Position numbers and translations under genes: made by a program. Positions 1,542 through 5,039 of a stretch of 21,400 nt of DNA are shown in pieces (position 1 is the first letter of the stretch; every line of letters begins with the position of its first letter). The stretch is from a virus: the IMG/VR virus record IMGVR_UViG_3300020392_000096, positions 1 to 21,400 of that record, one strand, 5' to 3'. The notes under the pieces were generated by a model. It searched no databases, was not told the origin of the DNA, and worked only from the letters and a program-made list of their open reading frames with translations.

Positions 1542-1780
1542 TATTCACCACCTTCTTCTGCTTCTTCTATTGGTTTTGCTGCTGCTGTTCTGGACTGCCC
1601 AGAAGATAGAAATGATGGAGTGCCAGTGCCAGTTTTAAGATGTGGTGGTGCTATAGCATACACCATGTCATCTAGGTCGGCCTCAGTAAGGTCGGCATTA
1701 AGTTCTAAGAATGTCCATGTGCCATCGCTAAATTGAATCTTGGCAACATTGTTATTGATTTCTTCTACTTTGTACTGCAC
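1541..1780 (-). CDS. Small hypothetical protein in the fibre block
   Basis: 79 residues. The N-terminal half alternates hydrophobic and polar residues (VEEINNNVAKIQFSDGTWTF) as in a short beta-sheet domain. An acidic helix-like stretch follows (LTEADLDDMVYAIAPP), and the tail is low-complexity (TGTGTPSF to EEAEEGGE). Start is GTG, not ATG: the GTG shares bases with the upstream TAG as TAGTG, so it is probably translated by termination-reinitiation after the glycine-rich protein. I do not recognise a named family, although similar small proteins accompany fibre genes in marine phages. Sitting between two fibre genes, it could be a fibre-associated chaperone or a minor tail protein; this is inference only. 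Confidence 0.65.
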   Translation of the reverse strand: MQYKVEEINNNVAKIQFSDGTWTFLELNADLTEADLDDMVYAIAPPHLKTGTGTPSFLSSGQSRTAAAKPIEEAEEGGE

Positions 1781-2784
1781 TAGACCGTACCTCCTTGAAC
1801 CGTTCCTGATTGTGTAAGTGTTACAAAGCTAAGGCCACGAATGTAATTACCAGCCGCACCACCAGCTACGCCATTAGTGCGATTTCCGTTTACACCTGTA
1901 GAACCAGCAGATCCAAAACTTGCACCAGAACCACCTGTGCCAGCATTAGTTCCACCACCAGAACCTGAAGCTGCTGATTGATTATAGCCTTGACCTACGC
2001 CACCAGCACCACCGTTTGTATTTGTGGTGCTTGAAACCGTTCTTGTTACTGCATACATACGTGCTTCATAAGTGTTGTCATAATCTCGCTGGCTTCCTGA
2101 TTTAGCAAAACTTTGATTGCCTGAGCTTGTTCCATAAAAAGTATTAGCCCAAACAACAAACCTAAAAGCACCATACCAATGGTCGGCCCAAGCATACCTA
2201 GTCCCATAAGGCCAGTTATAAGAAGTAGAGGAAGATGAACTGCTATATTGACCACCCCCACCAGTGCCACCACCACCACCACCAGCACGAATAGTACCAT
2301 TGTTTATTAAGGTACAAGCCACAGCAGTTTCAAAAGCATCACCGCCAGCCGCACCAGCAGCACCACCAGCACCGCTTAGAATACCATTGTTTGTAACAAC
2401 GATAGTTCCAGAACTACCAGACGGTATTTCTAATGCTTCTTCAGTAGTGCTTGTTGCACCAAGTTCCACGCCAGAATCAATAACAATTTCTTTGCGATAG
2501 TTAACAGCATAATCATCACCAAATAAAGTTGCTGCGCTTTGATTGGTTGCTCCAGATGTGAATGTAAACCGAAAACCTTTTGCTGTGCTTCTAAAGTTTG
2601 CAATGTTTATTGTGCCGCTGGTAGGCACAGATGCAGCAAGATTAACGCCATTATTATTTGCAGCTTTGGTTCTAATGTTTGAACCACCACGATATAAATC
2701 TGAATAAGAAATAGCGGCAGAGCCACCTACAAACTCAGTTCGTAGATCAGAAAAACTAACTGCGCCTGACGATGCTATAGCCAT
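1780..2784 (-). CDS. Glycine-rich adhesin-like tail protein
   Basis: 334 residues. Residues 1-65 (ASSGAVSFSDLRTEF, then DLYRGGS, then SGTINIANFR) form a module I recognise from many phage tail tip proteins. Residues about 70-135 look like a beta domain. From about 138 the protein has glycine-rich runs (138-148, 168-178, 258-311) broken by a Tyr/Trp/Phe-rich stretch at 180-220. The end carries GNYIRGLSFVTLTQSGTVQGG, also typical of this class. Glycine-rich motifs with variable loops between them are the hallmark of gp38-type adhesins of T4-like phages, which fold into packed polyglycine-II helices and display host-determining loops. By analogy this protein probably caps the fibre and determines host range. 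It follows the long fibre gene with a TAATG overlap. Similarity to gp38 is structural in style, not proven homology. Confidence 0.75.
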   Translation of the reverse strand: MAIASSGAVSFSDLRTEFVGGSAAISYSDLYRGGSNIRTKAANNNGVNLAASVPTSGTINIANFRSTAKGFRFTFTSGATNQSAATLFGDDYAVNYRKEIVIDSGVELGATSTTEEALEIPSGSSGTIVVTNNGILSGAGGAAGAAGGDAFETAVACTLINNGTIRAGGGGGGTGGGGQYSSSSSSTSYNWPYGTRYAWADHWYGAFRFVVWANTFYGTSSGNQSFAKSGSQRDYDNTYEARMYAVTRTVSSTTNTNGGAGGVGQGYNQSAASGSGGGTNAGTGGSGASFGSAGSTGVNGNRTNGVAGGAAGNYIRGLSFVTLTQSGTVQGGTV

Positions 2785-5039
2785 TAAATTGATCCAAATG
2801 CAGTTACATCATCAACGGTTACAATCTCACCATCATCCGCAAACTTAATCTTTGCAGTGCCATTGTATTTAAATAAAAGATTGTTTCCGCTTAACTCTAT
2901 TGTCCATTTGCTTGAGCCAAATTGAATAGCCTGATTATTGGTGTCCAATGTGCCGCCCAACTGGGGAGAAGTGTCGTTTACAAGGTCTGATGCAGGCACT
3001 GTTATTGTTGTCGGCTCAAAATCACCGCTAGTACTGTTATAGGCGAGAACCTGACCGTTTGTTACGCCAGTGGAGGAAACATCTGATAAATTATTTGTCG
3101 AAAGAGTCTGAATAACAAATGTTCCATAACCAACAATAGACACTGTATCATTTGTTTGTGCAGCACTCTGCAGCTCTACAGTTGTTCCATTTGAAGCTGT
3201 AAAATCTGCTGGTTGTAGTTTAATACCATTAAGATATACATCAACAAAGCCACCATCATATGTTGCAGGAAAAATTGTGGTCGAGCCATTGTAACTTCCC
3301 TGTGAAGTTCCTACAACATAATCTTTACGCTCTGATGTTCCATTTACAGAAGAGCCAGCATTTTGAAAAGCACCTCCAGTACCATAAACCTTCATTAAAT
3401 TATTTGTTGTATCAAACCATAAATCACCAACATCTTTACTCGTGTTTGGCTCATTAGCTGATACACGGTAGCGTTCACCAAAGTTGTTAACGCTGCTAAT
3501 ATTAGAAGCTACATTATTTACATTTGCTATAGAACCGCCAACAAGATTTACGTTGGATATAGAGCCGCCAACATTATTTACATTAGTCTGATTGTTTACG
3601 ACGGCTGCTATTTCAGTATCTATACCAGCTACGGTTGTCACATTAGCCTGTATTCCGGCTACAGTAGTTACATTAGCTTGAATGCCAGCAACTGTATTAA
3701 TGTTAGCAATACCGCCAGCAACAAGGGATATATTGCTATCTTTAACCGTAATCGTATTGCCCATACCATTACCATGAACATAACAATAGTATCTTAATCC
3801 AGTTGACGGTGCTGTTGTAGCAACTTCTATTTGCACCTTTCTATCACCGGAACTACGGCCAGCATTGAATGTTGTAACATTTACATAGTTTGACTGTGTA
3901 GTGGCAGATCCGTTAAGAAAATAAGTAACACCAACCTCATAAGCAGAACTGTTGTTTTTGAACACAAGAGGATGTCCATCGTTACTTGAGTCTGTTTGAT
4001 TAAATATGTAAGTGTTGCCCCTAAACATCTCGATGGCTGGATAAGCAGCACCATCAAGATAAAAGAAATTGCCGCTTCCTGGATTTACAACAGTAACTGT
4101 ATAAGTTTTTTCAAGAGAATCAGCCAAAGAAGTAATATCTGTAGATATAGCAGCAAGTGTATTCATGTCTGCTACAGCATCTGTTGTTCCCAATAAACCT
4201 ACATTGCTTGCAACACCAGATACATTTGAAAGATGGGTAGTATTAATTCCAGCTACTGTAGTTACATTAGCATGTATTCCAGCAACCGTTGTTACATTTG
4301 CTTGTATGCCTGCAACAGTTGTGACATTGCCATGTATTCCAGCCACAGTAGTTATATTAGAAGCAACACCAGCTACTGTTGGTAAACTAGAAGCTACACC
4401 AGCCACTGTTGGCACACTTGAAACCACACCAGCAACATCTGTAACGTTTGCAGCTATCCCAGCTACTGTATTAATATTTGCTACATTTGCTCCAACAGTA
4501 CCAACACTAGCTATAGAAGGGCCAGCTTCTGGCAATCCACTTGTAGCATTGAAAGCCAAAGTAGTACCTTTTCTTGTATCAAGATTAGGCAATGTAAGTG
4601 AAGCTGCTGTATCAGAATCAGCCAGCTTCATAGTACGTCCAATTTTTGTTTCAAGCTCTTGCTCAATAGCAAAAATCTTATCTAGCTCAGTGTTTAAAGC
4701 AGATACATTGAAAGGACCAGACGTAGGAAAGTCTGTTGTTCTCTCTACTGTAATATCACGAAAGATAGTGTACTTAGTGCCAGAGTCACTATAAGTATCA
4801 CCAAGAGTGACATGACCGCCAGAGAAACCATCATCAACAGAAACTCCTGTAACAGCAAAAGTTCCCGTCCCAGTTCCTCTAGTAAGCGTAGTATCCACAC
4901 CTGATGTATTGGTAACAATAACATTTATGTCATCTAAGCTAAAAAAGGGGAAGTCTATAGTAAGCTGTGTGCTATTCGCAGTAACAGCTTGCGTATATTG
5001 CTTTCTCGCATCATTGTCTGCTATCGATATAGTAGCCAT
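2784..5039 (-). CDS. T7-type tail fibre with decapeptide repeats and cupredoxin-like insert
   Basis: 751 residues. Residues 1-150 resemble the N-terminal, tail-binding domain of the T7 gp17 fibre (YTQAVTANSTQLTIDFPF, then a helical segment from NTELDKIFAIEQELETKIGR). Residues 181-280 are ten decapeptides of the TVAGIQANVT type, and 439-518 hold eight more, probably forming a fibrous shaft. Between them, residues about 312-434 form a separate domain resembling a cupredoxin, with His356 (GHPL) and Cys419, His422 and Met426 (YYCYVHGNGMGN). Residues 520-640 contain WFDTTNNLMKVYG and a domain with FVDVYLNGIKL, both common in marine phage fibres. The C-terminus (LVNDTSPQLGGTLDT, DGEIVTVDDVTAFGSI) is also a widespread marine fibre ending. 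A ribosome site, AAAGGA about ten bases before ATG, lies in a 42-base gap after the internal virion gene. Confidence 0.88.
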   Translation of the reverse strand: MATISIADNDARKQYTQAVTANSTQLTIDFPFFSLDDINVIVTNTSGVDTTLTRGTGTGTFAVTGVSVDDGFSGGHVTLGDTYSDSGTKYTIFRDITVERTTDFPTSGPFNVSALNTELDKIFAIEQELETKIGRTMKLADSDTAASLTLPNLDTRKGTTLAFNATSGLPEAGPSIASVGTVGANVANINTVAGIAANVTDVAGVVSSVPTVAGVASSLPTVAGVASNITTVAGIHGNVTTVAGIQANVTTVAGIHANVTTVAGINTTHLSNVSGVASNVGLLGTTDAVADMNTLAAISTDITSLADSLEKTYTVTVVNPGSGNFFYLDGAAYPAIEMFRGNTYIFNQTDSSNDGHPLVFKNNSSAYEVGVTYFLNGSATTQSNYVNVTTFNAGRSSGDRKVQIEVATTAPSTGLRYYCYVHGNGMGNTITVKDSNISLVAGGIANINTVAGIQANVTTVAGIQANVTTVAGIDTEIAAVVNNQTNVNNVGGSISNVNLVGGSIANVNNVASNISSVNNFGERYRVSANEPNTSKDVGDLWFDTTNNLMKVYGTGGAFQNAGSSVNGTSERKDYVVGTSQGSYNGSTTIFPATYDGGFVDVYLNGIKLQPADFTASNGTTVELQSAAQTNDTVSIVGYGTFVIQTLSTNNLSDVSSTGVTNGQVLAYNSTSGDFEPTTITVPASDLVNDTSPQLGGTLDTNNQAIQFGSSKWTIELSGNNLLFKYNGTAKIKFADDGEIVTVDDVTAFGSI
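3486..3725 (-). repeat. Second decapeptide repeat block of the fibre (8 units)
   Basis: In-frame 30-base periodicity encoding decapeptides at residues 439-518: LVAGGIANIN, then TVAGIQANVT twice, then degenerating forms such as NVGGSISNVN and LVGGSIANVN. The units become Asn-rich towards the C-terminal side. Probably a beta-helical or triple-stranded shaft segment. Confidence 0.8.
3741..4106 (-). other. Cupredoxin-like domain inserted in the fibre shaft
   Basis: This stretch encodes fibre residues about 312-433, flanked on both sides by decapeptide repeat blocks. The order His356 ... Cys419-X2-His422-X3-Met426, with YYC just before the second histidine and GMGNTITV after it, matches the His/Cys/His/Met arrangement of type-1 copper sites. 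In plastocyanin the spacing after Cys is X2-His-X4-Met and in amicyanin X2-His-X2-Met, so the spacing here is intermediate. An N-terminal strand (YTVTVVNPGSGNFFYLDG) and FRGNTYIFNQ also fit a cupredoxin barrel. Related CxxHxGMG endings are common in marine phage structural proteins as I recall. Whether copper is bound is unknown. Confidence 0.65.
4200..4499 (-). repeat. First decapeptide repeat block of the fibre (10 units)
   Basis: In-frame 30-base periodicity encoding ten decapeptides at residues 181-280, from TVGANVANIN through TVAGIHGNVT, TVAGIQANVT and TVAGIHANVT to SNVSGVASNV. Codon third positions differ among units that have the same amino acids, so the repeat is maintained at protein level rather than being a recent DNA expansion. 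Confidence 0.85.

Follow-up and report, generated by a model that had tools for sequence, protein, structure and literature searches.

A candidate copper-binding cupredoxin-like domain in the tail fibre of a marine T7-like podovirus

The tail fibre of a T7-like marine podovirus carries, in the middle of its repetitive shaft, a cupredoxin-like domain with a complete set of candidate copper ligands, an observation made in a first-pass annotation of the DNA and confirmed here. Residues 312-433 are predicted to form a separate domain with a cupredoxin fold, and very probably contain a cupredoxin-type metal site; the ligand pattern and the fold suggest metal binding there, with copper as the likeliest metal. 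Taken as a whole, the evidence is best explained by a candidate copper-binding cupredoxin module that would clamp a head domain, exposed at the surface, on a trimeric stalk. We hold this reading with moderate confidence; the structural-clamp role in particular is proposed tentatively. We infer that copper is the metal, that it occupies the site and that its role is structural or adhesive. The domain is a mobile module, found in the virion proteins of many marine phages and in a surface protein of marine archaea.

The virus record and its tail fibre gene

The window (the whole stretch of DNA analysed; positions 1 to 21,400 of IMG/VR record IMGVR_UViG_3300020392_000096) is a virus record of 21.4 kb holding a minus-strand structural operon of T7-like podovirus type, in which the connector is followed by the major head protein, the tail proteins, the internal virion proteins and the fibre. 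The fibre gene is preceded by a large internal virion protein with an endolysin domain, and both its position in the structural operon and its homology to fibres identify it as the tail fibre gene of a T7-like podovirus. For the tail tubular B protein, the nearest relatives were from Methylophilales phage MEP301, Yersinia phages and Pelagibacter podoviruses (26-40% identity). The two genes of concern are:

2784-5039, minus strand: tail fibre gene of a T7-like marine podovirus, 751 aa (open reading frame, PHROG tail fibre matches, operon position)
1780-2784, minus strand: gene after the fibre, encoding a 334-aa glycine-rich tail-associated protein (translation; PHROG 10745, weak tail fibre match)

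Judging from its protein class, the fibre is presumably a homotrimer. It has six His (residues 76, 236, 256, 269, 356 and 422) and a single Cys, Cys419, among its 751 residues. The 334-aa glycine-rich protein may be a receptor-binding adhesin. The following features of the fibre bear on the metal site, and the extents first given for the open reading frame and the domain were borne out:

3741-4106, minus strand: cupredoxin-fold domain, fibre residues 312-433 (AlphaFold2 model, PDB fold matches)
3972-3974, minus strand: His356, candidate copper ligand 1, immediately ahead of a strand (sequence, conservation, model strand)
3783-3785, minus strand: Cys419, candidate copper ligand 2 (conservation; the single Cys of the fibre)
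3774-3776, minus strand: His422, candidate copper ligand 3 (conservation)
3762-3764, minus strand: Met426, candidate axial ligand (conservation)

Predicted fold of the domain

The domain was modelled with AlphaFold2 from an alignment of 93 non-redundant sequences, each of which came from the window or from a virus or genome contig. The resulting model had a pLDDT of 95.2 and a pTM of 0.89, and the five models agreed (pLDDT 94.6-95.2). With only 8 sequences the pLDDT was 65.6 and the fold search returned no useful match; the deeper alignment cured both. In the PDB fold search (best E 5.7e-4), blue-copper proteins and multicopper oxidases took all of the first eleven places, among them a cupredoxin-containing nitrite reductase of Hyphomicrobium, rusticyanins and the multicopper oxidase McoA, with Ig-fold proteins appearing from rank 12 on. 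This confident model with its cupredoxin matches is, as far as the fold goes, the outcome that the first-pass annotation had predicted for structure prediction and fold search. The TM-scores against solved cupredoxins are moderate (0.41-0.55), which counts against our best explanation.

In the model, His356 (domain residue 45) sits directly ahead of strand E47-51, Cys419 ends strand E104-108, and His422 and Met426 lie in and just past the next turn. The predicted order of the ligands along the strands is the cupredoxin arrangement, and it is this topology, i.e. the strand order together with the fold matches, that would place the four ligands together. As modelled, the domain shows the hallmarks of the cupredoxin superfamily: a Greek-key beta-sandwich with His ... 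Cys-x(2-4)-His-x(2-4)-Met at conserved topological positions. A search of predicted viral structures (BFVD) gave 51 fold matches at E 0.001, of which the named ones were mostly virion proteins of cyanophages or uncultured phages. Several pithovirus and marseillevirus 'beta-sandwich proteins' (A0A481Z6J5, A0A481YXP1 and others) also matched the fold in this database, with E-values of 1e-5 to 1e-3.

Sequence relation to known cupredoxins

No Pfam family, PF00127 included, was matched by the domain at E-values up to 1 or by five homologous copies at E-values up to 10. Profile-profile comparison was performed against plastocyanins, amicyanin, pseudoazurin and the PF00127 domains of Marine Group II, with four reference cupredoxin sequences that we take as given. 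The probability reached only 22-41% (scores 25.4 and 27.4), and the alignment paired His with His and Cys-x2-His with Cys-x2-His. In 200 column-shuffled controls the maximum score was 23.5, below the real scores. When sequence profiles were compared with the PDB, antibody V domains, with their YYC motif, scored better than cupredoxins. This likeness is local (a shared G..G..VT..I..P..YYC stretch), and the matches were set aside because they leave the first His and the His-x3-Met tail mostly uncovered and because the confident model ranks copper proteins first.

The domain profile also weakly finds (E 1.3e-4) an H..C-x2-H-x2-M domain in an archaeal protein. This protein, a 724-aa open reading frame (L377), further contains fasciclin-like repeats and one PF00127 domain, and could possibly represent an evolutionary bridge. 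Matches to long repeat proteins of Marine Group II were dropped, as they span only the middle of the domain, without the ligands. The sequence evidence thus points to homology with cupredoxins, for which the predicted fold is the main support.

The fibre domain shares its predicted fold with plastocyanin, amicyanin, rusticyanin and the cupredoxin domains of multicopper oxidases and nitrite reductase, along with a His before a strand and Cys-x2-His-xn-Met at the domain end; the first-ligand stretch is GHPLVF in the fibre and PHNIVF in plastocyanin. Unlike these known cupredoxins, it has no detectable Pfam match and no known redox partner, is set in fibre shafts or baseplate proteins, and has a His-x2/3-Met spacing. 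The spacing is C-x2-H-x4-M in plastocyanin and C-x2-H-x2-M in amicyanin. Among the homologous copies, C-x2-H-x3-M was found in 172 and C-x2-H-x2-M in 23, so that the His-Met spacing of the phage copies (3 or 2) lies between those of amicyanin (2) and plastocyanin (4). The likeness to the copper-binding end of plastocyanin that had been noted at first thus holds for Cys-x2-His followed by Met, and not for the spacing.

Conservation and loss of the ligands

Of 197 unique homologous domains, 195 had all four ligands (His, Cys, His, Met) and the other two lacked most or all of them; the free variation that would have spoken against a metal site was not seen. The earliest searches for homologues had relied on a pattern made of the ligand motif, so bias was checked with the ligand-free pattern Y[TI]F[DN]Q.., and each of the 27 new copies recovered in this way had all four ligands. 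When copies from cyanophages, pelagiphages, archaea and the window were aligned (identities of 29-41% to the first sequence), only nine columns were invariant, four of which are the ligands. Exactly one Cys lies within the domain in 128 of the 136 domain-bearing open reading frames of at least 400 aa. This, together with the single Cys of the window's fibre, argues against an intradomain disulphide; a disulphide role for Cys419 was rejected, there being no other Cys in the fibre.

In isolate phages the Cys-His-Met triad was whole in 24 copies (one of them split by an insertion), absent in 8 and partial in none. These counts come from 20 genome stretches whose printed sequences were read by eye, with chance residues nearby discounted; a ninth triad-less match is the second half of one ligand-less copy. 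In some of the triad-less copies a His is still found at the site of the first ligand or close to it. Second domain copies that have lost all of the triad occur in cyanophage gp7-like proteins (L200, L206, L207, L399, L405 and L407), and several of these are of the same long form as the window's domain, which has an insertion of ~18 residues; they offer a natural metal-free control.

Since the triad is lost all-or-none and is complete where kept, selection appears to act on the complete site, and the site is probably metal-binding. The existence of ligand-less copies also means that the scaffold can do without the triad and that the fold is not always metal-dependent, which weakens a purely stabilising role for the metal. 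They favour the view, already raised as an option in the first-pass annotation, that the domain is simply a reused beta-sandwich (Ig- or cupredoxin-like) whose His, Cys and Met are kept for packing without any metal, as do the Ig-like profile matches and the frequency of beta-sandwich modules in virions. We consider this unlikely for the window's copy, because a scaffold that does not need the triad nevertheless retains all of it in nearly every copy. Packing would also leave unaccounted for the all-or-none loss, the co-conservation of two separated sequence regions across 29-41% identity, a lone Cys with no disulphide partner, and the ranking of copper proteins rather than Ig domains at the top of the fold matches.

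A mobile module in marine phages and archaea

The domain interrupts the fibre shaft, which is built of a 10-residue repeat of VAGI-x-x-NVTT type on both sides:

4200-4484 (rounded), minus strand: shaft repeat N-terminal to the domain, approximately residues 186-280 (repeat starts at residues 192, 202, 212, 222, 232, 242, 252, 262 and 273)
3600-3737, minus strand: identical repeat type C-terminal to the domain, approximately residues 435-480 (repeat starts at residues 440, 450, 460 and 470)

Among 49 relatives of at least 550 aa that share the N-terminus, the domain is present in 31 and absent from 18, and in the four domain-free relatives examined the shaft repeat runs on uninterrupted. At five loci (L048, L052, L058, L059 and L086) the fibre lacks the domain and an adjoining protein of 224-228 aa has it mid-sequence; at L048:5297-5968 and L052:3954-4637 this protein lies directly downstream of the fibre. 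Two tandem copies occur in some open reading frames.

Isolate phages carry the domain in cyanomyovirus gp7-like baseplate proteins and gp9 connectors and in the fibres of Pelagibacter and Methylophilales phages. The isolate matches amount to 315-338 records, every listed host being marine, and more than 400 virome stretches with the domain were found among the matches listed. The domains of the cyanophage gp7-like baseplate wedge and gp9 tail-fibre-connector proteins, of pelagiphages and of Methylophilales phages are homologous to that of the window's fibre and have the four ligands in common with it; they differ in their carrier proteins and hosts, and the gp7-like proteins have ligand-less second copies, unlike the window's fibre.

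Each of the four Marine Group II archaeal genomes searched encodes a single copy of the domain, at the C-terminal end of a protein that has a lipobox and a collagen-like stalk. These lipoproteins resemble the fibre in having a homologous domain with all ligands, on a stalk that is Gly-x-x in the archaea, and differ from it in being cellular, in their lipobox and in the C-terminal position of the domain. Surface proteins of this build were noted on the Marine Group II (Poseidoniales) genome contigs L185-L199.

Proposed role and alternatives

The module is common to extracellular structures of marine phages and archaea. One chain would supply the full type-1-like set of ligands (His356, Cys419, His422 and Met426), and with the module inserted in the repetitive shaft of a presumably trimeric fibre there would accordingly be three sites per fibre. 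Copper could be taken up in the mature virion, where, after release of the particle from the reducing cytoplasm, the metal would clamp the surface-exposed head domain on the stalk; a domain made rigid in this way might act as a lateral contact domain. Of the original interpretation, the cupredoxin-like domain and its candidate ligand set are supported by the model, the fold matches and the invariant, co-lost ligands. Its suggestion that the fibre binds a copper site or transporter on the host is not favoured, as the module occurs in phages of cyanobacteria, SAR11 and Methylophilales as well as in a cellular surface protein, and so wide a host range argues against a single dedicated receptor.

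A redox or Trojan-horse role is possible in principle. A redox-active copper site could exchange electrons with a host surface protein, or sense redox state, during adsorption, in keeping with the electron-transfer type-1 ligand set, the axial Met in all intact copies and the conserved His-x2/3-Met spacing. We regard this as quite unlikely, given that no partner or enzyme gene was found, that the module is present in phages of unrelated hosts and that the window's domain lies mid-shaft, away from the tip.

Bound copper could alternatively let the fibre engage a metal-uptake receptor of the host. In HxH fibres, T4 gp37 among them, the metal is bound where the chains meet along the axis of the trimer; they resemble the present fibre in that metal (a candidate one here) is held by an extracellular tail fibre. 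By analogy with the iron Trojan horse proposed for HxH fibres (PMC11705849), such docking is conceivable for phages whose listed isolate hosts are all marine and live where metals are limiting or toxic. It is nonetheless very unlikely, since the domain is tied to no single host or receptor, recurs in archaeal surface lipoproteins that need no receptor docking, and has its ligand set within one chain in a fibre without the HxH motif. Iron binding of the HxH kind was itself rejected, as no His-x-His occurs among the six His of the fibre. Least probable is a Zn(II) or Cu(I) storage site, either metal being suited to a Cys/His/His/Met set, because the ligand order and fold match type-1 copper proteins.

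Novelty and significance

No description of the domain in phages was found in the open-access literature. The domain thus appears to represent a cupredoxin-fold family without a Pfam model, numerous in virions and undescribed as such in the open-access literature searched. If its candidate site holds copper, virions in the sea may carry the metal: a large share of ocean phages (more than 300 isolate records, and more than 400 virome stretches among the matches listed) would have blue-copper-type sites outside the cell, and copper would join the metals that phage tails are thought to hold. The broader proposal, that marine phages at large carry copper proteins in the form of a mobile, copper-loaded cupredoxin module, standard in fibres and baseplates, and that this module helps in adsorption by touching the cell surface in a metal- or redox-dependent manner, seems doubtful at present. 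The domain's recognition gives a name and testable chemistry to a part of virion proteins annotated as hypothetical or structural, and connects the fibres of phages with a lipoprotein on the surface of uncultured marine archaea.

Separately, cyanophage ACG-2014b was observed to have a distinct petE plastocyanin gene (L207:40512-40835) in a structural region that also holds domain-bearing baseplate genes.
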